NCBI GenBank assembly: GCA_021790385.1
Contig: JAJYDW010000005.1
Span: forward strand, 1 to 64,000
Direction: 5' to 3'
Source of the DNA: Planctomycetota bacterium
GTDB lineage: Bacteria; Planctomycetota; Phycisphaerae; WQYP01
DNA: 64,000 nt
Every line of letters starts with the position of its first letter. The stretch's first letter is position 1. The position numbers were made by a program, and so were the translations under genes. Of the stretch, positions 7,230 to 52,992 are shown piece after piece. The notes beneath the pieces were generated by a model, which saw only the letters and a list, made by a program, of their open reading frames with translations, ran no database searches and had not been told where the DNA came from.

Positions 7230-7510
7230 TAATGCATCCTGACAGAATATCGGCCCACATCATCGATAAATCGGGGGCGAATACCTTCTTCGTTGTGGGG
7301 GCATGTCCCGCACGGTATTATCTGAATTTAGCACATTTGTGCATGGACTTTAAGTGTGCTGCCCTGCGGTGTCCGCCAAAGTCCGCAAGGTTTGGGGTGG
7401 TAGAGCGCGGGAGATGCCGGGAAATCCACACGTCGGCGAAGCGCTGCTGGCAAGCTATAAACCCGGATGATCAATAAGCAATAACATTGCGATTAGAAAA
7501 GGTTGTGACC

Positions 7511-28167: not shown

Positions 28168-28185
28168 TGGAATAAAGTTATTCCA
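28168..28185. promoter_or_regulatory. 18-bp palindrome TGGAATAA-AG-TTATTCCA (candidate operator/activator site)
   Basis: Perfect 8-bp arms; 31 bp upstream of a -35 TTGACA. Confidence 0.75.
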
Positions 28186-28216
28186 AAAAAACTTTTAAAT
28201 TTTGTAGCTTTTTTAT

Positions 28217-28244
28217 TTGACAAGGCCTATAAATGCTGTATGCT
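28217..28244 (+). promoter_or_regulatory. Sigma70-like promoter TTGACA-16-TATGCT
   Basis: Read at 28217-28222 and 28239-28244, upstream of the 28353 CDS. Confidence 0.6.
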
Positions 28245-28352
28245 GGTCAACGTAGTAACACTGGCGGCTCCGGAAATGAGCCAACGGTCAGATGAGGCGG
28301 TGTTTGCTTTGCCTGTGGTTTTTAGAGGGCGTTTGCATTGGAGGATTGAATC

Positions 28353-29921
28353 ATGCGAACGGAATTCAAATCATCTAAGTATGTAGCATTGGCACTGGCA
28401 GCGGCGGTGGCAACTGCGGGCATTGCCGCTTCGGGCACAGCGGCGCGAGCCACTACGGCTACGTGGACGGGCGGTGGTGGAAGCGGCAATACCAATTGGT
28501 CAGACACGGCCAACTGGAGCGGAGGCAGTATTCCCGGCACCGGCGATACGGTGGCTTTCGGCACCAGTACTTCTCTGACGAGCTATAACGACAATAGCGG
28601 CTTGTCGATTGCGGAATTGGCGTTTGGTTACCCGGCTTCTGGTGGCCCGGATTCATTTACACTGAGCGGCAACGCTCTGACCATTACCAGTAATGGAGTA
28701 TCCTCCGGGTACGGCGTGTACAGCGGGGCCGGTTCCGGAATAACCGAGACCGTCAATAACGATCTGAATTTCAGCGGTAACTCAACCGTGCGCGAAACCT
28801 CATCCGGAACAATTGTTCTTGATGGCACTATAGCTGGCAATGGCAACCTTACACTCAATGCCGGCAGTGGTGCCATCGTTCTTAACGACACCTCTGGTGG
28901 AACAGATACATTTACCGGCGGGCTGATTGGCATTAATGGCATTATCGACCTGAAGGCCGGTAACTACACGTTTCAGGGCAATAGCTACGCCTTACAAGGT
29001 ACCGTCACCATGACTGGCGGCAGTTTAACCCTCGGCAGTAGCAGTAGCGTGACAATAGAGAATGTAACCAACATATTCAACATCAGCGGTGGCACACTTG
29101 CCTACAACGGTTGGTACCGAGGTGCCGGTAACACGACCATTTCTACTGGCGGCACTTTGACTGTTAACGCCGTCGGAGCCTCCGGCCCGCGCATCTCGAC
29201 TGACACCTATAACGGGGCGTTGACCGTAGCGGGGGGTAGCGCAACCTTCTCCAGTGTAATCACGGTCAATAATGCCGGCTCGACAAACACCGGTACCATT
29301 AACCTCAATTCAGGCACGCTTACAATGCCTGGCCTTCTATTTAACAGCACCACTAACGGCACGGCCGTAATCAATTCCAACGGTGGAACGCTGGAATTTT
29401 CCGCTGCGGACACCATCGCATCCAGCACCGCCGCCACCTGGAATGTGCTGGCTGGCGGGGCGGTTATTAATACTGATGGCAACAAGGTTACTATTGATCA
29501 GGCGCTGGTAAGTGATGCCACCGCCGATGGCGGTTTAATCAAAGAGGGATCAGGTATGCTGAACCTGGCCAGCACTGCAAATACGTACAATGGCAATACC
29601 ACTGTGAATGCCGGTACGCTGGAAATTAATTCCAACTTTCTGGCCAGCACCAGTACCGTGTCCATAACCAGTGGTGCCATCATGGACTTAAATTACAGCA
29701 ACACCGTTACAGATATCGTTAAAGCCCTGTACCTCAATGGCGTAAGCCAGGGAGCGGGCGTCTACGGCGCGGGCCATTTGGGTTCCACTTATTTCTCTGG
29801 TACCGGCACGCTGACGGTGCAGGGCAGCGACATTCCGGAGCCGGCAACACTGGCGCTGATGGCGATGGCCGGCATTGGCATGCTGACGATAAAACGGCGA
29901 AAGAACATCGGTTCACTTTAA
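28353..29921 (+). CDS. PEP-CTERM protein with autotransporter-type passenger repeats
   Basis: ATWTGGGGSGNTNWSDTANWSGG; GLIKEGSGMLNLASTANTYNGNTTVNAGTLEIN; C-terminal IPEPATLALMAMAGIGMLTIKRRKN. Confidence 0.9.
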   Translation: MRTEFKSSKYVALALAAAVATAGIAASGTAARATTATWTGGGGSGNTNWSDTANWSGGSIPGTGDTVAFGTSTSLTSYNDNSGLSIAELAFGYPASGGPDSFTLSGNALTITSNGVSSGYGVYSGAGSGITETVNNDLNFSGNSTVRETSSGTIVLDGTIAGNGNLTLNAGSGAIVLNDTSGGTDTFTGGLIGINGIIDLKAGNYTFQGNSYALQGTVTMTGGSLTLGSSSSVTIENVTNIFNISGGTLAYNGWYRGAGNTTISTGGTLTVNAVGASGPRISTDTYNGALTVAGGSATFSSVITVNNAGSTNTGTINLNSGTLTMPGLLFNSTTNGTAVINSNGGTLEFSAADTIASSTAATWNVLAGGAVINTDGNKVTIDQALVSDATADGGLIKEGSGMLNLASTANTYNGNTTVNAGTLEINSNFLASTSTVSITSGAIMDLNYSNTVTDIVKALYLNGVSQGAGVYGAGHLGSTYFSGTGTLTVQGSDIPEPATLALMAMAGIGMLTIKRRKNIGSL

Positions 29922-29939
29922 TAAAGATTGGGCGGTTAC

Positions 29940-31244
29940 ATGACGGAAATGCTGCAGCCACGCAAAACAGTGGGCGAAAGCTCATGGTTTGTGCGGGATC
30001 GGTTTGGGATGTTTATTCACTGGGGGTTGTATTCCATGGCGGCCCGGCACGAATGGGTGATGCATCACGAAAAAATTTCGCCCCAGGACTATGAAAAAAA
30101 ATACTTTTCACGCTTTGATCCAGACCTGTATAACCCGCAGGCCTGGGCGGATGCGGCCAGCCGCGCCGGGATGAAGTATTTTGTGATTACCACCAAGCAT
30201 CACGAAGGATTTTGCCTGTGGGATTCCAAGCTTACCCCTTACAAGGCCACGCGCACGCCGGCCGGTCGTGACCTGCTGCGTCCCATGGTGGAGGCGTTTC
30301 GCCAACGGGATCTGCGGGTGGGCTTGTACCATTCTCTGATTGACTGGCACCATGACCAGTATGTGATTGATCCACACATTGGGCCGCTGCGGGACCATCC
30401 GGATCGGGCCAAGCTCAACGAGGGGCGCAATCAGGCCAAGTATGCCGCGTATTTGCATGGGCAGGTGCGGGAATTGCTGAGCCACTACGGCAAAATTGAT
30501 GTGCTGTGGTTTGATTTCAGCTACCCCAAGCCGGATGGCTCCGGCAAGGGTCGCCAGGACTGGCAAAGCGAGAAGCTCTACAAACTGGTGCGTAAGTTGC
30601 AGCCGAAGGTGCTGCTCAACGACCGCATAGACCTGCCGGATAGCTGGGACATCAAAACGCCGGAACAGGTGGTGCCGCGGCAAGGGGTGGTGGTGGACGG
30701 GCGGCCCGTGGTGTGGGAGGCGTGCCACACCTTTTCGGGTTCGTGGGGTTATCACCGGGATGAGCAATCATGGAAAAGTGTGGGGCAGTTGGTGGAAATG
30801 CTGGTTGACACAGTAAGTAAAAATGGCAATCTGCTGCTGAATGTAGGCCCCACATCCCGGGGCACTTTTGATGAACGGACGATGGAGCGGCTAAGCGGCA
30901 TCGGCCAATGGATGGATCTGCACAGCCGATCTATTTACGGCTGCGGAGCTGCGCCGGCGGAATTTCCGGTACCGCAGGATTGTCGATTGACCTGGAATGC
31001 GGCCCGGAAGCGCATGTACGTGCATGTACTGGCGTGGCCATTCCGGCATCTGCACCTGGATGGATTCAAGAATCGGGTGGCATACGCCCAGTTGCTCAAT
31101 GACGGTTCGGAAATAAACTTTCATCAGGACGGCCACCATGGGCTGCATTTTAAGGGTGTGGCCACACCGGAAACGCTGACCCTGGAATTGCCGGTGCAGC
31201 GGCCCCAGGTTACGGTACCGGTGATTGAACTGTTTATGAAATAG
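29940..31244 (+). CDS. Alpha-L-fucosidase (GH29)
   Basis: WFVRDRFGMFIHWGLYSMAARHEWVMHHEKI; AGMKYFVITTKHHEGFCLWDS; GNLLLNVGPTSRGTFD. Confidence 0.93.
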   Translation: MTEMLQPRKTVGESSWFVRDRFGMFIHWGLYSMAARHEWVMHHEKISPQDYEKKYFSRFDPDLYNPQAWADAASRAGMKYFVITTKHHEGFCLWDSKLTPYKATRTPAGRDLLRPMVEAFRQRDLRVGLYHSLIDWHHDQYVIDPHIGPLRDHPDRAKLNEGRNQAKYAAYLHGQVRELLSHYGKIDVLWFDFSYPKPDGSGKGRQDWQSEKLYKLVRKLQPKVLLNDRIDLPDSWDIKTPEQVVPRQGVVVDGRPVVWEACHTFSGSWGYHRDEQSWKSVGQLVEMLVDTVSKNGNLLLNVGPTSRGTFDERTMERLSGIGQWMDLHSRSIYGCGAAPAEFPVPQDCRLTWNAARKRMYVHVLAWPFRHLHLDGFKNRVAYAQLLNDGSEINFHQDGHHGLHFKGVATPETLTLELPVQRPQVTVPVIELFMK

Positions 31245-31315
31245 CCGCAACTACAAATCGGCCCAACGGAACCGTTTGTCCCGCTGGGTTATCGACCGGC
31301 TTTTGTGCGTCTTGG

Positions 31316-32800
31316 TTATGGCGTAAGGCCCAGCCGGGTGTATTGTTCCAGCGGGGCTTCATAATTTTTCAGATGGGCTTTGAGCCGCTGAATAAAATGG
31401 CTTTCAATCCCCTCATCGGTCAGCGGATGTTGCTGGTTAGGGTCGTGGAGTAAATCCCATAACTGATGCGGCCGGTCATATCCGTCCTCCTTCGTGGGGG
31501 CTTGGGGTACGCGGCCCGGCGTGGGAATTTTATACAGTGGCAAGTTATAGGTATGGCCAAAATACCGGCCCATTTCAATGTGTTCATGCACGGACCGTGG
31601 AAACCATCTATTCATGCCGGCCACGGGCATGGCGGTATAGGCATGGAGCGGACCGCCATCGGGATTGATAGGATTACGCATGTAAAAATAGCGGCCATCG
31701 GTAATGTTGGTGGCCATGCCGAAATAGCCCAAAATACCGTCTTTGCGTACGGGCTGGCCGGCGATGGCGGGCCGAAGTGAGCGGCCATGGACAAACGGCG
31801 GTGGGGGCACACCGAAATAGTCCAGAAAAGTGGGCATGATGTCAATGGTCTGGGTCATGGTACTGATGCGGCCTGACGACGGGTTGCCACCGGGTGGTTT
31901 TATAATCAGGGGAATTCGTCCAATTTCGCGGTAAACGGGCATGAACACCTTCATCCAGAAGCCGTGTTCAGCGAGCATGGTACCATGGTCGGTGGTGAAA
32001 ATGATCAGGGTTTCATCGAAAATACCAATTTCCTCGAGCTTGGCGAGTATTTTGCCCAGCCAGAAATCCGTCATGGTAAGCAGACCGGCGTAACATTTGC
32101 GGATGTGCTCGACCGCCGCCGGGGATTCTTTAACCACGTCATATTTGGGCCAGTCAAAAAGAGGACCGTCCCAGGTATCATGGTACAAGTCGCGATATTG
32201 TTGGGTGCAATAGAAAGGCTCGTGCGGGTCAAATATCTCCACCTGCATAAACCAATTATCCGCATGACGATTATCTTCCAGCCATTGTATCGCACTGGCG
32301 GCCGTGCGGTGGCCGGAAAAATCTTCTTCCCGCAGTTGGCGCAGACGGTTTTTATAGTTCTGGTCATCGCGTGGGGTTACACGAGGATCAAGTCTTTCCG
32401 GCATGGCGGGGCGATCGACCAGAGAAACCCAGGGGTCATATTCCTGGCCGCGGAACAGCTCCCAGGTGTTAAATGCGGTGTGATAGTTCTCGCCGCCGAG
32501 TTCAAAATAATGGTAATGATCGGTTAATAAATGGGTAAAAATGCCTTGATTCTGGAGGATTCGGGGCAGGACATCATCGTAGGGTTCAACAGGGCCCCAA
32601 CCGCGATAGATAAAATTATACTGGCCGGTGGTAAATTCCCGTCTGGCCGGCATACAAGGCAGCGAACCGACCCAATGGTTATCAAATTGCAGACCGCAGC
32701 CTGCCAAACGGTCAATATTGGGTGTTTTTACCCACGGGCTTCCGTAACACCCCAGGTAATCCTGCCGGACGGTATCCAGCACCAAAAACAACGCTTTCAT
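31316..32800 (-). CDS. Type I sulfatase
   Basis: VLDTVRQDYLGCYGSPWVKTPNIDRLA; LPCMPARREFTTGQ (C-x-P-x-R formylglycine motif); FTTDHGTMLAEHGFW. Confidence 0.93.
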   Translation of the reverse strand: MKALFLVLDTVRQDYLGCYGSPWVKTPNIDRLAGCGLQFDNHWVGSLPCMPARREFTTGQYNFIYRGWGPVEPYDDVLPRILQNQGIFTHLLTDHYHYFELGGENYHTAFNTWELFRGQEYDPWVSLVDRPAMPERLDPRVTPRDDQNYKNRLRQLREEDFSGHRTAASAIQWLEDNRHADNWFMQVEIFDPHEPFYCTQQYRDLYHDTWDGPLFDWPKYDVVKESPAAVEHIRKCYAGLLTMTDFWLGKILAKLEEIGIFDETLIIFTTDHGTMLAEHGFWMKVFMPVYREIGRIPLIIKPPGGNPSSGRISTMTQTIDIMPTFLDYFGVPPPPFVHGRSLRPAIAGQPVRKDGILGYFGMATNITDGRYFYMRNPINPDGGPLHAYTAMPVAGMNRWFPRSVHEHIEMGRYFGHTYNLPLYKIPTPGRVPQAPTKEDGYDRPHQLWDLLHDPNQQHPLTDEGIESHFIQRLKAHLKNYEAPLEQYTRLGLTP

Positions 32801-32893
32801 AGAGTGTATCTCCGTGCCATGGCCGCAACGCGGAACCACTGAATTATAACAGAATATCGCGGAGAGAAGGAATTAGCATCATTCAATTTAATT

Positions 32894-32911
32894 CAGAATA
32901 AACTTATTCCA
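32894..32911. promoter_or_regulatory. 18-bp palindrome variant CAGAATAA-AC-TTATTCCA
   Basis: Two mismatches to consensus TGGAATAANNTTATTCCA; between divergent sulfatase and prepilin genes; 32 bp from -35 TTGCCA. Confidence 0.65.
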
Positions 32912-32943
32912 ATATATTGTGTTTATAGTCTGATTCATTTTCC

Positions 32944-32972
32944 TTGCCATGAACGGGAAATCATGTTAGGAT
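32944..32972 (+). promoter_or_regulatory. Sigma70-like promoter TTGCCA-17-TAGGAT
   Basis: Read at 32944-32949 and 32967-32972. Confidence 0.5.
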
Positions 32973-33070
32973 GATGATAAGGATGGCCGATAACCAAAGA
33001 GGTGGAGTGTAACTGCTACGTTTTTGGGCGGCCCAGGTGCTCGGCGGTTGATGAAAATCAGGTGGCAGCC

Positions 33071-33892
33071 ATGCCAAAAAGGAATCAGAAAGCCTTTACA
33101 TTGGTGGAACTGCTGGTGGTGATTTTGATCATTGCCATTTTAATCGCTCTTTTACTGCCGGCACTGGGGGCAGCAAGACAACTGGCGTATACGGTAGACT
33201 GCGAATCGAACTTAAGACAGATCGGCCTGGCTGCCCAAATGTATGAAAGTACGTACGATGATTTTATCCCCTGCCAGCAAAACTACGGCCCCCCAGCTTA
33301 TTCAGGCATGCTTACGTGGGATAAGCAGTTGTATGAGTTTTTGAGCGGCCGATCGCTGACGCCGCAGCAGATCAACCACGATCTTCCGGCGACGATGCGA
33401 TTGCCGGTTTTTATGTGCCCGGATGATATTCGCGCCAGCCAAATTGGAGCGTCCTATCTCTATAATCAAGCCCCATTGTCGTATGCCATTGTTCAAGGCC
33501 CCATTTTTACGCCTGGCGGTCCCGGAATTTATGGGCTTATTGCTCCGGGGCAGGCACCTTACAGTACCGGCCAAGGGCCGACGGGCAGTTCACTGCCTGA
33601 CCCATCGGGCACACTTTATTGCACCGACAGCTTTGGCTTCTGTGATCAGTTTGCCGACCCGCCTTCTGCAACGGCCGGGGCTTTTCAGGGCAACACATCG
33701 CCACCAAATTTTGTACGTAACCAGTATCAGGATGCCTGGACGGGCCAACTGCTGACACCGCCGCATAGCGGCGGCACGTACAATTATTTATACCTTGATT
33801 GGCATGTGGAAAATAAACGCTACCAGGACACCGTTGGCACCGGTACGGTCGCCGTTCCCCGTGGCGCATGGACGGTTGCCGCCGGCGACTGA
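33071..33892 (+). CDS. Prepilin-type N-terminal cleavage/methylation protein (DUF1559-like)
   Basis: [33 protein letters not shown]-terminal [34 protein letters not shown]. Confidence 0.92.
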
Positions 33893-34494
33893 AAAGAGCC
33901 TCGATTTACACCGCATCTGATGCACAACGTGTTGCTGCCGGCATGGTTGCGGCCAAGGCCATTGACCTGATAATCCTTACCTGATGACCCACAGCCGCTC
34001 TGCCCGCCGGCTTTACATCCATCGTTAACACACCGGTAGCTTTTAACAGTCTGTACGACGATCGGCGGCAGCCTACGGCGTTGGCTCTGACAGCAAGTTC
34101 ATAGGCGAAACGTCTTTTATGCCATATTGTGTCTGGCGCAGCTTAATAGGCCGCATGGCACCCCGTTTGATCCATGTGCCATTGGCAACGTGCAGGTTCT
34201 TGGAAACTTAACTGCTGAAACATTCATTGGTAAGAGTTGCTGCACAGGGAGGCACGCAGTGGCCATTGCACGCCATCGCGGGGTGGCCAAAATCCGCTCA
34301 ATAGCATAATGCCTCTGTCACCTGCGTAAATGAGAGGCAGGGTAATCCAATCTCTTATGCCCAACTCGTGGAATTGATGGCGACGATACGCTTGAGAGAG
34401 CCTCTGTCTGCAGCGATCAGGATCGCCGCGACGCTGAACATCGGGGTTATGTGCATATCACCTGGAGAAGAAATTAGTATCATCCTATGTGATA

Positions 34495-34512
34495 TAGAAT
34501 AAGCTTATTCCA
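34495..34512. promoter_or_regulatory. 18-bp palindrome variant TAGAATAA-GC-TTATTCCA
   Basis: One mismatch to consensus; 31 bp upstream of -35 TTGCTA. Confidence 0.7.
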
Positions 34513-34543
34513 AAATAACTATCCAACTTCTAATTATTTATCC

Positions 34544-34572
34544 TTGCTATCCATGGGAACACATGGTAGTAT
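34544..34572 (+). promoter_or_regulatory. Sigma70-like promoter TTGCTA-17-TAGTAT
   Basis: Read at 34544-34549 and 34567-34572. Confidence 0.55.
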
Positions 34573-34637
34573 AAAATTGAAGGGTAACCGATAACCCCAA
34601 GCGGTGGAGTGCAACTGCGGTGTTTTTGGACGGCCAT

Positions 34638-34723
34638 ATAAAAATCTGCACTATGCCCAAACTATCGGCCGGGGAGCGTTGGCTGTACCGGAAGGAATGT
34701 GGAGTGTGGCGGCCGGCGATTAG
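34638..34723 (+). pseudogene. C-terminal scar of a prepilin-type (DUF1559-like) gene
   Basis: PYKNLHYAQTIGRGALAVPEGMWSVAAGD* matches the end of the 33071 gene ([29 protein letters not shown]). Its leader also resembles that of the 33071 gene, but the prepilin body is missing. Confidence 0.75.
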
Positions 34724-34867
34724 GTGATCTTGGCGCGGTATTGAAAAAGTGGTTATTACTCTTGAGGAGTTATCATAAGTGTTAAAATTTCGGAAATTGA
34801 ACGTAGTTGCGGTGCTGGTAATTATATTGGCCCTGGCTGGAGGCAGCGCGTGCCGGGCGGCCCAGGC
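34694..34867 (+). repeat. Duplicated cassette copy A: prepilin tail + RBS region + start + signal peptide
   Basis: Near-identical to 38317-38491 by eye, including GTGTTAAAATTTCGGAAATTGAACGTAGTTGCGGTG and ATTATATTGGCCCTGGCTGGAGGCAGCGCGTGCCGG. Confidence 0.9.
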
Positions 34868-37800
34868 GGGTCAAACCGCCAAACCAGATACTCTGGCGGC
34901 CCAACGGCTGCTGCAACTGCTGGAGTTAAATCCGGGTCAGATGGCGAAGGATGCACTGCGCTTTCGGCCGCAACTGGTGCAGGTTTCCAAACTATATTCA
35001 GCCGGGCACTATCGCCGGGCGCTGGACACTTTTTACAGTTATTACCTAAGCAAGTTTACGGCCCCGCAGAATTATGGTCTGCCCAGTGCATTGGCCAGTC
35101 CGTATCTGGCGTGGGGTTGCCGGCCTTTTTACTGCGTTCCGCCGCTGTTTAGCGCCCACACGCCGCCAAAAACAATTGTGGCTGCGGCCAATGATCTGGT
35201 CAAAGGTATCATGAACCTTAATGGGCAGGAGGTTCATATCGGTCCGCCGGGCACAGTCAACTGGAATTATCCATTTCCCGCCGGCCAGCGTGTACCGGCC
35301 ATGTTAAAGCATCCGCAATTGCATCACTGGCAGGTGAATCCTAATCCGGAGCTCTTCACGCTGGGTGGATTTAATCCACTGGTCCAAGCCTACATGCTTA
35401 CCCATAAAAAGATATACCTGATAACCTGGGCGGCATACCTGCAGGATTGGTGTACGCATTGTCATTACCTGGGAGAACTCAATCCGCTGTTTGTGCCGGA
35501 TGGCGTTAATGCCCAACTCGGCGCAATGCCCATCAGCTTTATGCGCTTGCTGGAAGGTATAAAAAGTGTGAATCCAGATATTCAAAAGTATGTGCCGCCG
35601 GCGCTTTTTGCGGTGGCTTTGCGAAAAATGTACCTGGAATGTCTGCTGCCCGGCGTAGCTTATATTCGTTCCAACACTCACAATTGGACACCGGCTTCCA
35701 GTGCTGGCCTGATTAACCCGGTTGTGTTTGACGAGTTTAGCGGATCGGCCACGTTGTTTCGCAACATTGCCCGGCGCAGCATTGAAAATGTGGAAACCAC
35801 ACAAGCGTTCCGCGACGGCTCGGAAACGCAGGAAGACCCCTGGTATGATCAATTTGATTATGCCAATATCTGGTGGATGATGCGACTGCTGGATTCACGC
35901 TGCCTGATGGTGCCACCCTGGCAGATGATTTCCTGGGAATCGGCGGTGGCCAACAATCCATTTTTTCATCAGGATGTGCAGCGTCTGCTGCGCCGCAAAA
36001 ATACATTTTTAACACATCTGCAAACTCCGCAGGGTGAGTGGCCCATCACGTTCCGAGGAGATCAGCGTCGGGCCGGTGCAATGCCCTACCCATATGCGCC
36101 TCAGGCCTGGAATAATCCGGTAAATGCGGCGATTATGGAGGCCATCTTTAATCCTACGGCGGGCGTTGCGCCGCCGTATACCTGCGATTGGTTTCCTTAT
36201 ATCGGCTTGGCCATTATACGCGATGGGTGGAAGCCCACCAGTAGTTATGGAGCCTTGTTTTGCTCGCCGCATCCGCCGGGTTACGGAGCTTATCGTGGTC
36301 GCAGTGATAACAACAGTTTTGGCCTGGCAGCTTATGGTCAGGACTTGCTGGTGAACAATACCACCGGCCATTATATGTACCCAACTTCGCCGATGAAAGT
36401 GAATGGTTTTAACCAGTTTTTTGAGACCGGCATCTATAAAGTTCCGTCGCCGGAAGGCCATAAATCTTATGAAGTTCACGCCTGGCACACTCCGGCTCCC
36501 TGGCTGTGGTATGCCTCTTCCACGCTGAACCTGGCCGAGGGCATTTACGCCGGCCGCTGGGGCGATTTGCAGCGTCCGCGCACCGTGGCCGGCCCGTACG
36601 GCCCGGATCAAAGTATGCAGGGCACCCTGACCAAGGCCCAAACCTTTGGCGGGGTGATATTTCAGCGACAGGTGATGCAGGTACGCCGGGCAAAGCTGTG
36701 GATTGTTACCGATCGGCTGCTTACCAAAAAGAATAACCACTACACGCAGATCTGGCGTTTGCCGATTTCGCCGACGCCTTCTTCATATCCGAGAGCATTT
36801 AAGCTATCGCATATTCATATCAATGCGGCGGACAGGTCCATCATCACGGACCAGCCCAATGGGCATGGCAAGTGGAGGCCGATTCCCAAGGCCAATATGC
36901 AGTTGTTGCAATTCAGTCTGGCCCATCTGGCTTATTCTTCAAAGTTGGTCGTTCAGCCGCCCATGGTCTGGAAAACACGCAAATTTTATGTTCATCCAAA
37001 CCTGGATCGCATTGCCGTGAAATGGCATGGCAGGGGTAACCAGCAAATTGTTACGGCGATTCTGGTGGTGCCACCGGGATCCACCCAGGGCATGAAAAAA
37101 CTGCATCAAATCACCAGCGGCAAACAAGGAATTGGTTTTCAGGCGGTAACACCCGATGGCCTGCAGGTGGCGTATCTGGCTTCGCCCAGGGCGGAGGATG
37201 TTTTATCTTTGCCGCAAATGACGATCCATGGACGGGCGCTGCTTCTGGCCGGCAGCCAGGGCATGGCCCTGGGTTGCAGCAGCATCAGCGTGGGAGGGAA
37301 AGCGGTGCATGCAGGCTACCGCAACTTTGCATTCCACCTGGTGGGCGGCAGATTAGCCGACGTGCATCCGATTCATCGGCCGATTGTACCGGTGAAAATT
37401 ATGCCTGATACCACGGCCTTTGTTGGACACTTGAAAGTAACCCTAAGTACACCTACTGCGGGCGTAGAAATTCGGTATACCACCAATGGGGCCAATCCAA
37501 CGCCACAATCACCTTTGTACACCAGGCCCTTTACCCTTGATCACACCGCCAAGGTGCAGGCCCGGGCCTATCGACCGGGAGTAACATCCAATCCGATGAC
37601 CTTAAGCGGCATCCATGCCACCCCTGCTACCGAGGCGATATTTCATAAAATTCACGTGCAGCCGGCATTGCCTTTCTGGATGGCCAGAGTTTGTAAGCCT
37701 GGCGTAGAATGTGCATATTATCAGGCCGGCTGGCAACAGATGTGGTTGAACCTGCAAAATCTCAAACCCCAGAAAACCGGCGTGGTGGGCCACCTGTGGG

Positions 37801-38252
37801 CCATGAAATTTATTCCCGCCGACAATCCGCCGGTGGGAATGGCGGCAGCCCCGCGCAAAAAGTATTACGCGCTAGTGTATCATGGTTATTTAAACGTGCC
37901 GACAACCGGGGTGTATACCCTGCATGCGCCCAAAGTTTATTACATTGCCAGCACAGATCCTGGCTACCAGTTGCGGGTATATGTAGGCCAGCAGTTAATC
38001 GAGTGGAATCCATCCGAGCGCGTTCACGCTTTTGGCAACTGGAGCGTGGCTTTGGCCAAAGGGATGCATAAGTTTAAGATTGTGTATATCGATTACCGGA
38101 CGAATTCAACCGAGCGGCTGAATTATCCGGGCATCCGCGATTACATCTGGGATGGGGTCAGGCCGAACCTGGAGATTTCCGGTCCGGGTGTAAAGAAACA
38201 GCCAATCCCTACGACCTGGCTGCAATACCGTCCGCAGAAGACGGGCAAGTGA
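34779..38252 (+). CDS. Large secreted heparinase II/III-like polysaccharide lyase with CHB_HEX-type and PA14-like C-terminal domains
   Basis: Signal peptide MLKFRKLNVVAVLVIILALAGGSACRAAQA (GTG start); ARRSIENVETTQAFRDGSETQEDPWYDQF; GRSDNNSFGLAAYGQDLLVN; VTLSTPTAGVEIRYTTNGANPTPQSPLYTRPF; PTTGVYTLHAPKVYYIASTDPG. Confidence 0.75.
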   Translation: MLKFRKLNVVAVLVIILALAGGSACRAAQAGQTAKPDTLAAQRLLQLLELNPGQMAKDALRFRPQLVQVSKLYSAGHYRRALDTFYSYYLSKFTAPQNYGLPSALASPYLAWGCRPFYCVPPLFSAHTPPKTIVAAANDLVKGIMNLNGQEVHIGPPGTVNWNYPFPAGQRVPAMLKHPQLHHWQVNPNPELFTLGGFNPLVQAYMLTHKKIYLITWAAYLQDWCTHCHYLGELNPLFVPDGVNAQLGAMPISFMRLLEGIKSVNPDIQKYVPPALFAVALRKMYLECLLPGVAYIRSNTHNWTPASSAGLINPVVFDEFSGSATLFRNIARRSIENVETTQAFRDGSETQEDPWYDQFDYANIWWMMRLLDSRCLMVPPWQMISWESAVANNPFFHQDVQRLLRRKNTFLTHLQTPQGEWPITFRGDQRRAGAMPYPYAPQAWNNPVNAAIMEAIFNPTAGVAPPYTCDWFPYIGLAIIRDGWKPTSSYGALFCSPHPPGYGAYRGRSDNNSFGLAAYGQDLLVNNTTGHYMYPTSPMKVNGFNQFFETGIYKVPSPEGHKSYEVHAWHTPAPWLWYASSTLNLAEGIYAGRWGDLQRPRTVAGPYGPDQSMQGTLTKAQTFGGVIFQRQVMQVRRAKLWIVTDRLLTKKNNHYTQIWRLPISPTPSSYPRAFKLSHIHINAADRSIITDQPNGHGKWRPIPKANMQLLQFSLAHLAYSSKLVVQPPMVWKTRKFYVHPNLDRIAVKWHGRGNQQIVTAILVVPPGSTQGMKKLHQITSGKQGIGFQAVTPDGLQVAYLASPRAEDVLSLPQMTIHGRALLLAGSQGMALGCSSISVGGKAVHAGYRNFAFHLVGGRLADVHPIHRPIVPVKIMPDTTAFVGHLKVTLSTPTAGVEIRYTTNGANPTPQSPLYTRPFTLDHTAKVQARAYRPGVTSNPMTLSGIHATPATEAIFHKIHVQPALPFWMARVCKPGVECAYYQAGWQQMWLNLQNLKPQKTGVVGHLWAMKFIPADNPPVGMAAAPRKKYYALVYHGYLNVPTTGVYTLHAPKVYYIASTDPGYQLRVYVGQQLIEWNPSERVHAFGNWSVALAKGMHKFKIVYIDYRTNSTERLNYPGIRDYIWDGVRPNLEISGPGVKKQPIPTTWLQYRPQKTGK

Positions 38253-38316
38253 ATGCTGCCGGCGGCAGCGAATTTGCACGCCAAGGAGTATTTTGATGCC
38301 TTGGGGAAAAGCTTAA

Positions 38317-38491
38317 GGAATGTGGACGCTGGCTGCCGGCGATTAGGCGGTCTTGACGCGGTGTTGAAAAAAGTGGTTACTACTCTTGAAGGAGTTATCA
38401 TAGTGTTAAAATTTCGGAAATTGAACGTAGTTGCGGTGTCGGTAATTATATTGGCCCTGGCTGGAGGCAGCGCGTGCCGGGTGGCCCAGGC
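38317..38491 (+). repeat. Duplicated cassette copy B: prepilin tail + RBS region + start + signal peptide
   Basis: Counterpart of 34694-34867; preceded by another prepilin tail fragment (NLHAKEYFDALGKSL / GMWTLAAGD*). Confidence 0.9.
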
Positions 38492-39797
38492 AGCAAGCCC
38501 TGCCGGCAGGGAACATACCGCAGATATGCGCTGGTGGAAGCAGGCTCGCTTTGGCATGTTTATTCACTGGGGTATTTACAGCCAGGCAGCGGGCTATTGG
38601 CAGGGCAAATCCATACCTGGAGATGGCGCGTGGATCATGGATCAGGCTCATCTGACACGGAAAGCCTAAAGCACGCTGCCTGCACAGTTTGATCCGGTTG
38701 ATTTCAACGCGAACCGGTGGGTCCGCATGGCCAGGCGGGCGGGGGTCAAATACATCGTGATCACCTCAAAACATCACGACGGTTTTTGCATGTTCCATAC
38801 CAGGGCCACGCATTTTAACGTAGTCGATGACACACCCTGGCACAAGGATCCGCTGGCCATGCTGGCGAAAGCCTGCAAAAAATACGGCATCCGCTTTTGC
38901 ACCTATTATTCGATTCAGGACTGACATAGCCGCTACACGCTGCCGGCTATCGGCAATCCGAATCAGGGGCATCCAACGTGGCAGCCCATGCGGTTTACCG
39001 CCAATGGCGGCGGTGAAAAGTACGTGCATTATGTGCAGCGGCAGGTGGGCGAATTGATCCGCCAATACCATCCAGGCATCATCTGGTTTGATAATTTCTA
39101 TGTGAAACCGTGGGTAACACGGCACGGCCGGCATATTGCCGGCTGGACCTATTCCTATGCCAAGCAGGTGTTTGATGATGTGCGTAAGCTGGATCCAACG
39201 GTGATTGTCAACAATCGGCTGGATTATGGCTTGGGAGATTACAAAACTCCGGAACAGCACATTCCGCCACAGGGCTTGCCGGGCGCGTGGGAAACCTGCA
39301 TGACCATCAACGGGACCTGGGGTTATAAACGCGATGATCATCACTGGAAAACGCCGGCAATACTAATTACCAACCTGATCAAATGCGCCAGCGGAGGCGG
39401 AAATTTTCTACTGAATGTAGGCCCCACGGGCAAAGGCCTCATCCCGCAACCGGAAGTTCAGCGGATGCGGGCGATAGGTAAGTGGCTTAAAGTAAACGGC
39501 CAGGCCATTTATGGTTCGCATCGCACGCCATTTGCCAAGGCTTTACCATTTGGTTATGCGACGCAAAAACCGGGAATGCTATTTTTAGAAGTTACCCGCT
39601 GGCCTCATCACCAGCCACTGCTGGTGCCGATACGCAATAAAATACAAAGAGCGTATGTACTTGGGTTCCCGCAAGTGAAAGTAAAAGTGAAAAATGAACC
39701 ACGCGGCTGTTTGTTGTATCTGCCCGGCAAAATGCCCGATCCTGTGGCCACGGTTATCGCTTTGAAAATATCGGGTGCGCCGCATCCGTTGCCGTAA
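38403..39797 (+). pseudogene. GH29 alpha-L-fucosidase interrupted by two in-frame stops
   Basis: Same reading frame throughout. TAA at 38667-38669 (TRKA*STLPAQFDPVDFN) and TGA at 38922-38924 (YYSIQD*HSRYTLP); ORFs 38253, 38727 and 38988 all lie in one frame; RFGMFIHWGIYS and GGGNFLLNVGPTGKGLI motifs present. Confidence 0.88.
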
Positions 39798-39903
39798 AAT
39801 CTATCGCCGCTGGAGGTATGGGCTGCTTCAATAACGGCTTTGGCTGACTTTGGCCAGGCTATGATGAGAACGGGCGAAAATAAGGCTTTTTCGCCTGGGC
39901 CGG

Positions 39904-41202
39904 TCAGCTATTTTCGTCGGCCACCGCCTTAAACCATTGCACCAGTTTGTAATTGGGTTGCCATTGGCCATGCGCTGGTACCACCGTGGCGTTGGCATAG
40001 AGCATGGTCAGTGCATACTGAGCATATTTGGCGGCGCGCACGGGGTTGCCGATAATTTTATATTGTCGTCCGCCGGAATAGGCGCTAAGCAGCACGCGAT
40101 TCCGGCGCATCAATTGCCAGGACTTTTGCATAAAGGTGGGGCTTAGCGGGGCGGTGGCCATGAAATCATTCCATTGTTCCAGAACTACGGGATGTTGCAT
40201 GCAGGCGAGGGTGTAGTCGGCGTTAGTGAGTTTGGCGGGCTGTTTCCAATGAGAGGCAAAATGACCATCGAGTGGCTTTTTGATCCAGTCATTGAGTACC
40301 GGGCTTTGGCTCCATTCGGTACTTAGGAATGGCTTATCGGTGAGTGTACGGGCGAAGGTTAGTTGCCGGTGCATGGAGGCAACATCTTTAACATAAAGAT
40401 GCAGGTCCAGGGCGGAAATATGGCTGTTGCGATTGGTCCACGCGCACAGGTCATGGGTAAAACCGGTACAAGCCTTGATCCAGTTGGTAGAGGCGGCGTT
40501 GCAGCTCATCACCTGCGGGAGAATGTTAATGGCCGGGGCAGAAATTGGCAGGGTGGGGCGGATTTTGTGGATTTCCCGGGCCACGGCGGAGTACCAGGTC
40601 AATACAGGAATGGTGCCGTTGGCAGATCGGTGCCAATTGGACTCTTTAAGAAAGGTTAAAGGTTCGTTATCCAGTGTTACGTAGTAGAGTTGATCACCCA
40701 TGATGTGCATGAATTGCCGAACCAGTTGCAGCCATTGCCGGCCGCGGGGTGAATTCACTGCGGGTATAGGCAAGGCTTGTCCCCAATTGCCCCACAAAAA
40801 CGTTACCACCGGTTTGATACCCGCCTTATGGAGAGCCCGGATGACCGCAAAGGACCAGGGCCACGGGCCATGGCCGGCCTGGGCCGTCAGTGCCTGCGGA
40901 AGTATTTTTTGCAGCACTACAATGGGCACAATCAACCGTACCGCATGGGCGTCAATAGCCCGGGCCTCATGCAGAGATGGCACATCAAAGCCACCAAATA
41001 TGGTTGAGTGTGGCAACTTGCGTATGGATGCCTCAAGAGGTGGGGAGGCAAGAGAAGCTACAGATAGTGCGGTGCCGGTGGCGAGCATTTCGCGTACAAA
41101 ATGGCGGCGGGAAACCGGTTGAGTCGTCATGACGGGCTGGCCGGAATTTTCCGGTGTTATCTGGAGCATTGTGGACGGTAAAGGAATTTGAGAGATCGTC
41201 AT
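39904..41202 (-). CDS. Secreted TIM-barrel glycoside-hydrolase-like protein with twin-arginine-like signal
   Basis: SRRHFVREMLATGTALSVASLASPPLEA; VRLIVPIVVLQK, YYVTLDNEPLTF, DKPFLSTEWSQSP (acid/nucleophile-like positions). Confidence 0.65.
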   Translation of the reverse strand: MTISQIPLPSTMLQITPENSGQPVMTTQPVSRRHFVREMLATGTALSVASLASPPLEASIRKLPHSTIFGGFDVPSLHEARAIDAHAVRLIVPIVVLQKILPQALTAQAGHGPWPWSFAVIRALHKAGIKPVVTFLWGNWGQALPIPAVNSPRGRQWLQLVRQFMHIMGDQLYYVTLDNEPLTFLKESNWHRSANGTIPVLTWYSAVAREIHKIRPTLPISAPAINILPQVMSCNAASTNWIKACTGFTHDLCAWTNRNSHISALDLHLYVKDVASMHRQLTFARTLTDKPFLSTEWSQSPVLNDWIKKPLDGHFASHWKQPAKLTNADYTLACMQHPVVLEQWNDFMATAPLSPTFMQKSWQLMRRNRVLLSAYSGGRQYKIIGNPVRAAKYAQYALTMLYANATVVPAHGQWQPNYKLVQWFKAVADENS

Positions 41203-41405
41203 GGTGTTATTCTCCAAAAGATATTTTCCGGGCTGCAGGACCATTTGAAAACTCCAACGACAGCGTTTGCGGGCTGCGGATAAGCTGCTAAGCGGTGGCG
41301 GTTATACCCAATTCGACCACTGGTAATAGCTGTGGGCCAGGTTCGCAGCCGCAATCGAACGAACCAATCATAACCTGCAAAAATGACAATGCAAGCGCAA
41401 TATAT

Positions 41406-41423
41406 TGGAATAATCTTATTCCA
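41406..41423. promoter_or_regulatory. 18-bp palindrome TGGAATAA-TC-TTATTCCA
   Basis: Perfect 8-bp arms; 31 bp upstream of -35 TTGACA; lies between divergent genes. Confidence 0.75.
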
Positions 41424-41454
41424 AAATAATATTTATTTTTTGGAGTTTTTTTGC

Positions 41455-41483
41455 TTGACACGGCGGTGATTTTGTGTTACATT
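41455..41483 (+). promoter_or_regulatory. Sigma70-like promoter TTGACA-17-TACATT
   Basis: Read at 41455-41460 and 41478-41483. Confidence 0.6.
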
Positions 41484-48662: not shown

Positions 48663-48904
48663 AGTATATTCCGAATTATTTTCATCCCATGCCAGAAATG
48701 TGAACTGCCCCCCGCTTCAATCATCAAGGTTGCCTGGTGGTTGGCTAACAGTTATTCAATCACACATTTTGCGGCAGCCTATTTCACATATTATCAAATA
48801 ATTTTAGCTGAAATTTAATTTGACATCAACGCCACTTTAGTTGTAATATGGCTTTATGGAACATCAATGGAATAAAAATAAAATGACTTTTAACAGGAGT
48901 TCTC

Positions 48905-50002
48905 ATGGGTAGCGCCACTATTTTGGAAGTAGCGCAGGCTGCAGGTGTGGGAATCGGAACCGTATCCCGCGTGATCAATCATCCGGACACAGTTAAGTCC
49001 GCCACCGCCCAGGCCGTCCATAAGGCTATGGCCGGGTTGGGATACACTCCTCCGACTCCAGACAAACGCCGGGGCAGGCGGATCGGGCAGGTTTATCCAC
49101 GAAAAGCCCCTGCTAATTTGCTGCTGTTGATTGTGGGCGAGCAAGGTCTGCGCTGGATGTTGAGTATGGCTCCGATTTATTCCGCAGTCATTGATGGTAT
49201 CGAGAAAGGTGCAGCAGCACACGGCATGAATATGCTGGTCCGGCAAACCTCCAACTGGAATGATCTTACGGCGGTGGTTGAAGACAGTACCGCCCGCGGT
49301 GCCATTCTTTTTGGTTCCCATGAGCCTCTTGGTCTTCCCCCCGGCGTACTGCAAAGAAAACCGGCGGTCTGGGTAATGGGTAGCCCGGAACATTTTTCCG
49401 GAGATCATGTGCAGCCGGACCATACCAAAATCGGCGTTTTGGCAGCGGAATATCTCCGCCAGCGCAAACACCTTCACTGTGCGTATCTGGGATCCAGTGA
49501 AGGCACGCCTCAGTTTCACATCGGCTATCGGGCAACCGCTTTTCGCTGGGCCATGGAAAATGCGGGTGGTAGCGTGGACATGTTGGTTAACCCGGCGATG
49601 GTTATCAATGATAAGGATCATAACGCTCCCAATGAACCGCTTATCGCCAAGCTGCTGCAGCGACTTGTCGGCCTGAAGCCCCGTCCGTCGGCGCTGATGC
49701 TGGAAGCCGATATGCTGGCACCAGTTACCTATCGACTGCTGCAATCGCACGGTGTGGTCCCGCAAAAGGATATTACCATTGTAACCTGCAATAATGAACA
49801 GCCTTACCTGCTGTCCCTGTATCCACGGCCCGTGGTGATTGATCTTCAGGCACTGTCCATTGGCAAACGGGCAGTGGATCAATTGCTGTGGCGCAGCGAA
49901 AACCCACGTGAGCCATCGGTGCGGGTCATGGTAGAGCCTGCACTGGTGGAACCGGGTGTGAACGGTCATGCCGTTCCGGCCGCACGGCACAATGGGCACT
50001 AA
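48905..50002 (+). CDS. LacI-family transcriptional regulator
   Basis: ATILEVAQAAGVGIGTVSRVINHPDTVKSATAQAVHKAMAGLGYTP N-terminal HTH; periplasmic-binding-like effector domain. Confidence 0.93.
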   Translation: MGSATILEVAQAAGVGIGTVSRVINHPDTVKSATAQAVHKAMAGLGYTPPTPDKRRGRRIGQVYPRKAPANLLLLIVGEQGLRWMLSMAPIYSAVIDGIEKGAAAHGMNMLVRQTSNWNDLTAVVEDSTARGAILFGSHEPLGLPPGVLQRKPAVWVMGSPEHFSGDHVQPDHTKIGVLAAEYLRQRKHLHCAYLGSSEGTPQFHIGYRATAFRWAMENAGGSVDMLVNPAMVINDKDHNAPNEPLIAKLLQRLVGLKPRPSALMLEADMLAPVTYRLLQSHGVVPQKDITIVTCNNEQPYLLSLYPRPVVIDLQALSIGKRAVDQLLWRSENPREPSVRVMVEPALVEPGVNGHAVPAARHNGH

Positions 50003-50065
50003 GCCCGGGCCAGAGTTGTGGAACAAACATGGCCGGCAAGCCACAAAAAAAATGGGAAACGCTCT

Positions 50066-51160
50066 ATGCTGATTCATCAAGACGTTGGCTTGCACAACGT
50101 GACGCAACTCGAACCGGCCGAGGGTGGCGGTCTGTATCTGCGGCGTTTCCCCGCTACGGTACGCGGCAAATTTATTCCATTGGGGCGCATGGTTGCCGCG
50201 GAGTCCTCTGGAGTAGAGTTGCGTTTTGTTACCGATTCACCAAACTTTTGTCTATCTGTCGGCAGCCGTCCTTCGGTGCTGGCCCCTTTCGAAAAACACC
50301 AGCAGGATCTGTTTATTTTCCGGGGAGCCTTCCTGCATTCGCATCACCGTTTGGATCCGGGGAAAATCAACCACATCAACGTGGTGAATATTGGAAATCT
50401 CGATAAGTTCGATGAAATAGCGGAATCGCAGCGTCTGGCCTGCGGATTTTCCTGGAAAGTGTGGCGGATATTTTTCGGGCGGTACCCGGCAATTTATCTG
50501 GAATTGGATACGTATGGCGCACCGCGGCGACCGCCGCAGCCGGCAGAGGTACCGGCCTGTCGCTGGCTGGCCTACGGCTCGTCTATTACGCATGGGGGGG
50601 CGGCGACGCTGCATCATGGTGCATACATCTACCATGCGGCCCGTGTGGCCGGCGTGGATGTGTTCAATCAGGGGCTTTCCGGTTCGTGCCACTGCGAAGC
50701 GCATGTGGCAGATTATTTTGCAGCGCGCACCGACTGGGACATCATCACCCTGGAGATTGGTGTGAATCTGCGACCATCTACCAGTCCAACTGAGTATTGC
50801 CGACGCGTCAGCTATATGCTGGAAAAGCTGCGGCAGACGCATCCTGCAGCACCGATTGTCCTGCTGACCATTTTTCCTAATGCCGCCACGGCAGGCTACA
50901 CCGCCGGCACCAATGCGGCGAACACCCAGAGCGAAGGCCGCTTTAACGACATCTTGCGGGAGCTTGCAGGCCGTAGCGCACCGGCCAATGTACATTTCAT
51001 AGAAGGCCATGAACTCCTCGATAACTTCGGCGACTTAAGTGTCGATCTGATCCACCCCAGTGATTATGGGCACGTGCGTATGGGGACGAATTTGGGATTG
51101 CGGCTGCGTCAAATACTTAATGCCGCCTTTGCAAAACCGTTACCTGCAACAGAAGGATAA
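50066..51160 (+). CDS. SGNH/GDSL hydrolase-like protein (carbohydrate esterase candidate)
   Basis: CRWLAYGSSITHGGAA (block I), WDIITLEIGVNLR, DLIHPSDYGHVRMG (block V). Confidence 0.85.
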   Translation: MLIHQDVGLHNVTQLEPAEGGGLYLRRFPATVRGKFIPLGRMVAAESSGVELRFVTDSPNFCLSVGSRPSVLAPFEKHQQDLFIFRGAFLHSHHRLDPGKINHINVVNIGNLDKFDEIAESQRLACGFSWKVWRIFFGRYPAIYLELDTYGAPRRPPQPAEVPACRWLAYGSSITHGGAATLHHGAYIYHAARVAGVDVFNQGLSGSCHCEAHVADYFAARTDWDIITLEIGVNLRPSTSPTEYCRRVSYMLEKLRQTHPAAPIVLLTIFPNAATAGYTAGTNAANTQSEGRFNDILRELAGRSAPANVHFIEGHELLDNFGDLSVDLIHPSDYGHVRMGTNLGLRLRQILNAAFAKPLPATEG

Positions 51161-51162
51161 TT

Positions 51163-52992
51163 TTGATGAACCTTGCCATGGTCCGCGGCTTTACCGATTG
51201 GGATTATGCCGTCATTGCCTTTTATTTTACCTTCATGGTCAGCATTGGCCTGGTCTTTCGGCACTACAGCAAAAATATAAGCGATTATTTCCGTGGCGGC
51301 GGGTCTATGCTGTGGTGGATGAGCGGGGCTTCGGCCATGATGGGGGCGCTAAGTGCGTGGTCTTTTACGGGTGGTGCCGGCGAATATTATAAGACAGGGC
51401 TTTTGCTGTATCTGGGGGTATTTTTGCCTGGTAACATAATCGGTGGATTGATCGGCATTTTTTATACTTCTTATCGCTTTCGACAGATGCGCGTTATTAC
51501 CTCCGTTCATGCCATCCGCCGACGGTACGGCCCGGTCAACGAACAATTTTATGTGTGGTGTCAGGTTCCCATTAACCTGTTTTACGGCGGGCTGGTGCTC
51601 AATACGCTTAGTGTGTTCCTATGTGCGGCGTTCGGGACAAATTTGTTGGCCACCGTAATTACCACAGGCGTTATTGTATTGTTTGTAGCGTCTGCTGGAG
51701 GAGCGTGGGGCGTTATTGCGGGAGATTTTGTGCAGATGCTGGTGATGCAATCGGTGGTGCTCACCACCGCCTTTCTCACATTGCATCTGCCCCAGATTGG
51801 AGGTCTTGGGGGCTTGCTTCACCAATTGCCGGCATCGGCCTTCCACTGGACTATGTTGGTTCGCCCGCAGGTGTTGTACTTATGGCTGGGATCGATGATT
51901 ATTGGTGGAATAGTGGGTTCTTTTGACTTATCCAACGGAGCCGCCCGATTTATGACGGTCAAGGATGGCCGTAATGCGGTCAAGGCTGCCATCATGATGC
52001 TGGTCATCGGATCTTTTGGAGGCATATTTATCATGATACCGCCACTGGCGGCACGGGTGCTGTATCCTCACCTGCATCAGGTGGTTCCCAATCTGCATCA
52101 CCCTTCAGAAGCAGCATATCTGGTGGTGGCCATGCGTGTGCTGCCAGATGGCATGTTAGGACTGCTGGTAACGGGGCTTTTTGCGGTAACCATGGCCAAC
52201 ATGGACACCGGTTTGAATCGCAACGCCGGGATTTTTATTAAAAATTTTTACAACCCCATCCTGCGTCCGCACGCTACGGAGCGGGAACTGATGCTGGCCA
52301 GCCGCGTATGCTCAATTATTTTTGGTCTTCTGATTATTGGTATCGGCATTTTGATAGCACTGTTCCGCACGGCCAATTTGTTCAACTATGTGATTGTGTT
52401 GGGGGTGTTGCTGGGTGCTCCCCTGACGGTACCGTTGGCCTGGGGCATGTTAATCAAGCGCACGCCGCCGTGGGCCGCATGGAGTACGGTTCTGGTAGGC
52501 TTTTTCGTTGCCGCCATGTTTCGCTTTGCCATACCCGCGACCTGGTTTCCATACCTGATGGGATGGCATCGACCGCTTTCACCGACAGCTTCTCAGGATG
52601 TGATGTTTTTCAGCATGACCTTGGTCGTTCTGATAATCGCATCCGGGTGGTACTTGTTTACGATGAAATTTGCCGACCGCTCGCCGGTGCCGTACAAAAA
52701 GGATGTGGAAATGTTTTTTAAGGATATGAATACGCCAATTGATCCGGTGGCTGAAGGTGTCCCAGGAGAGGATTATCGGCAGTGCCGCGTAATCAGCAGG
52801 TTATGTCTGGTCTACGGCTCGGCCATGCTGCTGGCTATGTTGATTCCCAACACCTTGGGGGGGCGATTATGTTTTATGGCTATCGGTACCGCCATTCTCA
52901 CCATTAGTTTGTTGTTGCATCTGGCGGGGCGCAAGGCCCGGCGAACGAATGTCATAGCAGCGCCCGATTCGGAGGTATCAATACACTCGTAA
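51163..52992 (+). CDS. Sodium:solute symporter (SSS family)
   Basis: Multi-TM protein; DYFRGGGSMLWWMSGASAMMGALSAWSFTGGAGEYYKTG typical of the SSS family. Confidence 0.9.
   Translation: MMNLAMVRGFTDWDYAVIAFYFTFMVSIGLVFRHYSKNISDYFRGGGSMLWWMSGASAMMGALSAWSFTGGAGEYYKTGLLLYLGVFLPGNIIGGLIGIFYTSYRFRQMRVITSVHAIRRRYGPVNEQFYVWCQVPINLFYGGLVLNTLSVFLCAAFGTNLLATVITTGVIVLFVASAGGAWGVIAGDFVQMLVMQSVVLTTAFLTLHLPQIGGLGGLLHQLPASAFHWTMLVRPQVLYLWLGSMIIGGIVGSFDLSNGAARFMTVKDGRNAVKAAIMMLVIGSFGGIFIMIPPLAARVLYPHLHQVVPNLHHPSEAAYLVVAMRVLPDGMLGLLVTGLFAVTMANMDTGLNRNAGIFIKNFYNPILRPHATERELMLASRVCSIIFGLLIIGIGILIALFRTANLFNYVIVLGVLLGAPLTVPLAWGMLIKRTPPWAAWSTVLVGFFVAAMFRFAIPATWFPYLMGWHRPLSPTASQDVMFFSMTLVVLIIASGWYLFTMKFADRSPVPYKKDVEMFFKDMNTPIDPVAEGVPGEDYRQCRVISRLCLVYGSAMLLAMLIPNTLGGRLCFMAIGTAILTISLLLHLAGRKARRTNVIAAPDSEVSIHS

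Follow-up and report, generated by a model that had tools for sequence, protein, structure and literature searches.

Helix-phased palindromic sites and a candidate LacI-family activator in a planctomycete gene cluster

The DNA analyzed here, referred to as the window, is a stretch of 64,000 nucleotides from a Planctomycetota bacterium (assembly GCA_021790385.1, contig JAJYDW010000005.1, positions 1 to 64,000). From about 28.3 to 54 kb, the window contains a gene cluster for alpha-L-fucosidases, two sulfatases, a heparinase II/III-like lyase with a chitobiase-type domain, a GH43-like protein, right-handed beta-helix, PEP-CTERM, and prepilin-like (DUF1559) proteins. It also encodes a GDSL esterase and a sodium:solute symporter, and its one LacI-family regulator is P0001. 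The substrate of the cluster, judged from its enzymes, is probably a sulfated and probably fucose-containing glycan, a sugar of the seaweed type. A Tat-signal protein (39904–41244) encoded within it is probably a glycoside hydrolase, and the LacI, GDSL esterase, and symporter genes probably constitute one operon. A distinctive characteristic of the cluster is an 18-base-pair (bp) palindrome, TGGAATAANNTTATTCCA, which is found upstream of its promoters.

The palindrome is present in four promoter-linked copies, operators 1–4 (Table 1), which carry 0, 2, 1, and 0 mismatches to TGGAATAANNTTATTCCA, respectively. All four are located where an earlier sequence-only reading of this DNA had placed them. 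The genome-wide scan proposed in that reading was carried out, and the sites are not at background frequency: the whole assembly (3.6 Mb, 95% complete) contains five matches at ≤2 mismatches, all of them on the window's contig, and the reversed pattern, used as a control, has zero genome matches at the same threshold. Within the window, five matches at ≤3 mismatches were observed against 0.21 expected, and 0 of 100 shuffles reached five. The fifth match, at 5653, lies within a ketoacyl-synthase reading frame and is without promoter geometry. The two central bases of operators 1–4 are AG, AC, GC, and TC; none of the operators has a central CG.

The cluster is syntenic in two congeneric genomes (G004 and G003) and partly assembled in two others (G001 and G002). 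Across these four genomes and the window, three orthologous promoters carry the site. It precedes the first PEP-CTERM gene in the window, G003, G001, and G002, at 31, 32, 32, and 32 bp from the −35 element; the DUF1559/lyase unit in the window, G004, G003, and G002, at 32 and 31 (the window pair), 31, 31, and 32 bp; and the second PEP-CTERM gene in the window, G004, and G003, at 31, 32, and 29 bp. In the three genomes that have operator 4 (the window, G004, and G003), all 16 arm bases are identical and both centre bases are variable; the 60 bp upstream match at 15–25 positions, and the spacer at 12–15 of 29. In G005 and G008, single sites with ≤1 mismatch are no more than the background rate predicts; neither genome has a close LacI ortholog.

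Operators 2 and 3 are duplicates of one ancestral site because the congeners carry a single DUF1559 gene and a single site before the lyase gene. The four-member regulon described in the sequence-only reading is supported as a regulon, but its members are better counted as three ancestral sites (one duplicated) serving six candidate transcription units. The same reading had proposed a test for enrichment upstream of PEP-CTERM and DUF1559 genes; a link to these genes in general is not supported. Since there are 51 PEP-CTERM motif matches across the genome and the site is confined to one locus, a PEP-CTERM-wide regulon was rejected; the regulon is local and serves the fucosidase/sulfatase/lyase cluster. 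As a separate observation, window positions 33900–34779 are a remnant of a duplicated DUF1559 gene, in which operator and leader are retained and the gene body is gone.

Promoters were sought with a sigma70 matrix over 0–60 bp on either side of the site, favouring no distance, in 19 site directions including those of orthologs; the orthologous promoters among these are not independent of each other. This unbiased scan recovered the gaps of 31, 32, 31, and 31 bp between operators 1–4 and sigma70-like −35 elements that the sequence-only reading had given. It also showed that the gap is conserved, as the best-scoring forward promoter is 31–32 bp from the site in 11 of 12 cases including orthologs, and 29 bp in one. 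Two divergent promoters, those of the sulfatase (31316) and the Tat-signal protein (39904), had been overlooked alongside the four forward ones. The best-scoring promoter is at 21–22 bp on the sulfatase side in 4/4 genomes and at 10–11 bp on the Tat-signal protein side in 3/3. The distances of 31–32, 21–22, and 10–11 bp correspond to about three, two, and one helical turns. Therefore, the divergent promoters strengthen the earlier proposal that a regulator acts from one face of the helix; the part of that proposal which called the regulator an activator is a matter of promoter geometry and is taken up below.

In none of the five promoter architectures does the site overlap the core promoter. 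At the sulfatase gene, the promoter combines a perfect TATAAT (4/4 genomes) with a poor −35, which is frequent in activator-dependent promoters. The two weakest promoters in shuffles are the window's sulfatase promoter (p = 0.185) and lyase promoter (p = 0.125), with all others at 0–0.06. Support for phasing that is independent of the forward promoters is provided by the two divergent architectures and by two paralogous contigs, C24 and C66, described below; it is suggestive rather than overwhelming. The true start of the PEP-CTERM gene that follows operator 4 is at about 41614.

Table 1. Operators, promoters, and regulatory genes of the cluster, in window positions.
Feature	Genes and remarks	Position	Strand	Basis
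Operator 1, TGGAATAAAGTTATTCCA		28168..28185	+	palindrome match; orthologous site in G003, G001, G002
Promoter TTGACA-16-TATGCT	31 bp from operator 1; PEP-CTERM gene 28353–29921 and alpha-L-fucosidase 29928–31244	28217..28244	+	unbiased scan
Divergent promoter, weak −35 and TATAAT	21 bp from operator 2; sulfatase 31316–32839	32843..32872	−	unbiased scan
Operator 2, CAGAATAAACTTATTCCA	between divergent genes	32894..32911	+	one orthologous site each in G004, G003, G002
Promoter TTGCCA-17-TAGGAT	32 bp from operator 2; DUF1559 prepilin-like gene	32944..32972	+	unbiased scan
Operator 3, TAGAATAAGCTTATTCCA	duplicate of operator 2	34495..34512	+	palindrome match and congener comparison
Promoter TTGCTA-17-TAGTAT	31 bp from operator 3; heparinase-like lyase 34779–38252	34544..34572	+	unbiased scan
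Divergent promoter TTGCAT-16-TATGAT	11 bp from operator 4; Tat-signal protein 39904–41244	41367..41394	−	unbiased scan
Operator 4, TGGAATAATCTTATTCCA	between divergent genes	41406..41423	+	palindrome match; orthologous sites in G004, G003
Promoter TTGACA-17-TACATT	31 bp from operator 4; PEP-CTERM gene, prepilin-like gene 42679, GH43-like gene 43823	41455..41483	+	unbiased scan
LacI-gene promoter TTGACA-18-TAATAT		48820..48849	+	promoter sequence
Tandem half-sites TGGAACAT and TGGAATAA, 11 bp apart	near +1 of the LacI gene; putative site of autoregulation	48857..48875	+	conserved at orthologs
LacI-family regulator P0001	candidate binding protein	48905..50002	+	PF00356, PF13377 matches
GDSL esterase and sodium:solute symporter genes	3' of LacI	50018..52992	+	gene order kept in congeners

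Among the genes of the cluster, P0001 alone was recognised as a transcription factor, and its earlier nomination as a candidate regulator is supported. It has an N-terminal LacI helix-turn-helix (HTH) domain (PF00356, E=1.7e-15, 56.9 bits vs a cut-off of 27) and a C-terminal periplasmic-binding-protein-like effector domain (PF13377, E=5.8e-10, 39.9 bits vs a cut-off of 26.5), the latter with alternating helices and strands in the structure model. The hinge helix of LacI-family proteins typically inserts at the central CG of the operator. Where a canonical hinge helix is expected, P0001 has the linker PPTPDKRRGRRIGQ, which is basic (KRRGRRIGQ) and has no predicted helix, residues 53–67 having a predicted local distance difference test (pLDDT) score <50. 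The linker is non-canonical and, based on the model, probably flexible, and neither it nor the operator sequences display the typical family trait of a hinge helix inserting at a central CpG. A central CG is present in the even-palindrome operators of 1173/1303 LacI-family regulators (~90%), and P0001 remains a member of the family because ~6% of regulators have a different or degenerate operator centre (PMC4052901). The RGR/RRGPKP/RGRPRR look of the linker is a resemblance to an AT-hook only, with no Pfam AT-hook match, and the literature searched contained nothing on a LacI-family protein with an AT-hook.

The sites and P0001 are connected both across genomes and within this one. G003 and G004 have the sites and a LacI ortholog (88–96% identity) in the same syntenic cluster, and G001 has both on separate contigs. 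A relaxed pattern, GGAAT-N4..16-ATTCC-N15..42-TTGACA, searched genome-wide, has four matches: two at the window locus, one on C24, and one on C66. C24 and C66 carry LacI paralogs of P0001's clade, and C66 also has its own fucosidase, PEP-CTERM, DUF1559, and lyase genes, parallel to those of the window, as well as a third site of this type, GGAAC-N14-GTTCC. The operators on these contigs have 13 (once 14) bp between pentamers vs 6 in the window operators, and the distance from the pentamer end to the −35 is 21 bp at 3/3 promoters seen. The recognition helix of the C24 paralog is GVGVGTVSRVIN vs GVGIGTVSRVIN in P0001, with G[IV]GTVSRVIN in common. These sequence comparisons make P0001 the probable binding protein of the operators. 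C24 has a further peculiarity (locus L058 of G000, 6612–8054): transposase-like frames, recognised by eye, are followed by a contig-end fucosidase fragment 94% identical to window 29928–31244.

No convincing multi-copy palindromes were found near LacI homologs of other genera (~31–36% identity), many of which have RRGPKP-like linkers. The support for the proposed rule that relates operator to linker therefore comes from this genus. Upstream of LacI homologs in another genus (L220–L223 and L225) there is a conserved element, TGCAAATTAATGGTAAATAATATTGCA or similar, with widely spaced TGCAA half-sites.

The half-site is also found at the LacI gene itself. Tandem TGGAAYAA half-sites, 11 bp apart, lie at about +1 after the LacI promoter in every LacI-bearing congener locus, and the 349 kb of loci searched contain no other such arrangement at 0–1 mismatches. 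A weaker tandem version accompanies the more distant LacI ortholog of G009 (54–58% identity). Just 5' of LacI, at window 48856–48905, there is a possible leaderless short frame, MEHQWNKNKMTFNRSSHG; a similar one, MEQKWNKNKFTKKRWG, occurs in G003, and it is broken in G001.

On balance, we favour the explanation that the palindromes are operators of the cluster's own LacI-family protein, which would act as an activator from helix-phased upstream sites. A P0001 dimer would bind two TGGAATAA half-sites flanking the degenerate 2-bp centre. It would thereby be positioned upstream of the core promoter, on the helix face used by RNA polymerase, with the palindrome centre ~55, 65, or 75 bp before the start site, and activate transcription in a class-I-like manner. 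The dimer would aid polymerase binding, probably via the C-terminal domain of the alpha subunit over the A/T-rich spacer, and would do so in both directions where the site separates divergent genes. In this way, a sugar ligand, which is probably released when a sulfated, fucose-containing glycan is degraded, could bring about the joint production of fucosidases, sulfatases, the heparinase-like lyase, and PEP-CTERM and prepilin-like proteins. The tandem half-sites at the LacI transcript start suggest that P0001 may limit its own synthesis.

Several points weigh against this explanation. LacI-family proteins are mostly repressors. The sites, their conservation, their spacing, and their restriction to the locus are observed, and the binding protein, the sign of regulation, and the ligand are all inferred. 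G002 (87% complete) has the sites, but no LacI or GDSL gene was found in it; its contig ends inside the cluster. The operator 4 ortholog in G003 is at 29 bp. The forward promoters may share ancestry, given that the spacers of operators 1 and 4 are identical at 22/31 positions, above shuffles, and so their equal spacing may be partly inherited. Finally, the tandem half-sites might be coding sequence for a short leader peptide, MEHQWNKNK.. in the window and MEQKWNKNK.. in G003, although G001 retains them with that frame broken.

P0001 may instead bind the sites and repress from upstream, by contacting or trapping polymerase, by blocking an unseen activator in the manner of CcpA at lev and of CytR with CRP, or by looping between sites, several of which lie within 13 kb. 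Such an action would accord with the prevailing mode of the family. Helix-face dependence applies to repression too (PMC3463425), and CytR acts by anti-activation (PMC3454398). Against upstream repression, 0/5 architectures have the site over the core promoter, whereas a canonical LacI system of the same genome, on contig C57, has 3/3 sites between −35 and −10. No second conserved activator element was noticed either, though there was no systematic search for one. Upstream repression is rather unlikely in our judgment, and, given binding by P0001, the geometry makes activation the likely sign. That equal spacing reflects common descent alone, i.e., that a single operator-promoter cassette spread by copying inside the cluster and its spacing has no functional meaning, gains from the duplicate pair of operators 2 and 3 and from the likeness of the operator 1 and 4 spacers. 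It is nonetheless improbable, as the operator 4 spacer has near-random identity between species and yet the spacing stays at 29–32 bp, the divergent promoters are also near whole turns and cannot be copies of a forward cassette, and the C24/C66 sites are at 20–21 bp.

It is equally improbable that the sites bind another, unlinked transcription factor and that the LacI gene is merely a neighbour. The pairing of P0001 with the operators is deduced from sequence, and operators devoid of the central CG depart from the great majority in the family. Yet the non-canonical linker of P0001 is in keeping with an operator that has no CG; the sites are restricted to the LacI locus, with a half-site in the LacI promoter region; and, beyond this locus, only contigs that carry close LacI paralogs have the same half-site upstream of promoters. 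Perfect inverted repeats could also be transcribed hairpins, terminators, or recombination sites. This is hardly credible for sites that lie upstream of promoters, would form a loop of 2 nt, lack a T-run terminator layout, and keep their arms while the centre varies; no mobile element was seen at the sites in the window.

The activator proposed here has partial counterparts among known systems. CcpA of Firmicutes, also of the LacI family, activates ackA, pta, and ilvB through sites 5' of the −35, and its action depends on the face of the helix (PMC3463425), as is inferred for P0001. In contrast to CcpA, which is global and has CG-centred cre sites, P0001 is local and its operators have a degenerate centre and another half-site; its match to the CcpA model is weak and over the HTH only (28.6 bits, cut-off 442). 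CytR of gamma-proteobacteria has inverted repeats in most operators and direct repeats at cytR itself (PMC3454398), an arrangement resembling that of the window, and its relaxed half-site spacing is ascribed to a flexible unstructured linker in the title of ref. 26 in PMC5263246. CytR is the second-best NCBIfam model for P0001, at 52.3 bits, below its cut-off of 436. It differs in being an anti-activator that works with CRP on nucleoside genes, and no CRP-like partner site was noticed at the window operators.

Local LacI regulators of sugar clusters (RegPrecise-type collection, PMC4052901) share with P0001 the confinement to a cluster of carbohydrate genes, the even 18-bp palindrome, and candidate autoregulation. 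They differ in that the window operators have no central CG, lie upstream of −35, and are common to divergent promoters, and in that the hinge of P0001 is non-canonical. The C57 system is likewise a second local regulon, with a LacI gene adjoining PEP-CTERM genes and several local operators, but it is of the canonical type: its linker (GYRPNRLAQSLSGR) is canonical, and three CG-centred GTTTAAYCGGTTAAAC operators (L217:9467, 9715, and 14978; G000:C57) lie between the promoter elements.

A local LacI regulon is an already known kind. The literature searched contained no published PEP-CTERM/LacI/planctomycete regulon, nor a case that combines a helix-less hinge, absence of CpG, helix-phased upstream sites, divergent promoters served by one site, and half-site spacing that differs between paralogs. 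It is conceivable, though less probable than not, that in Phycisphaerae-like planctomycetes a branch of the LacI family has exchanged the CpG-inserting hinge helix for a flexible basic linker and has in this way passed from blocking promoters to upstream activation at whole turns (~10, 21, and 31 bp), often bidirectionally. Paralogs of this branch would keep the half-site and vary its spacing (6 vs 13–14 bp between GGAAY pentamers) for specificity to their own sugar clusters. The analysis yields a concrete and testable circuit for a planctomycete cluster whose function is probably the breakdown of a sulfated fucose-containing glycan; little is known of transcriptional control in this group. 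Moreover, one genome with LacI proteins with and without a canonical-type hinge, and operators that differ in centre and promoter position, is a natural experiment on the question of how a repressor family yields activators. The circuit also connects surface proteins of the PEP-CTERM and prepilin-like kinds with particular sugar clusters.

Some further observations concern individual contigs and genes. The second fucosidase of the window (38253–39797) is broken into short frames (38253–38669 and 38988–39797) and is one frame in G003 and G004; the split is either a frameshift or an assembly error. After a PEP-CTERM gene in G004 (L043:17228, contig C51) there is GGAATAAG-N6-CTTATTCC, with the same half-sites more widely spaced and no promoter seen. 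A second contig with LacI, GDSL, and SSF genes (L052, G004:C86) has the promoter and LacI start as in G003; G004 also has its own copy, and the second copy probably reflects a strain mixture in the G004 assembly. For four of the six LacI-family genes of the genome, the closest gene appears to be a PEP-CTERM gene (G000 contigs C57, C91, and C101; L217, L060, L218, and L219), and sugar regulators may be paired with PEP-CTERM surface proteins as a general rule in this genome.

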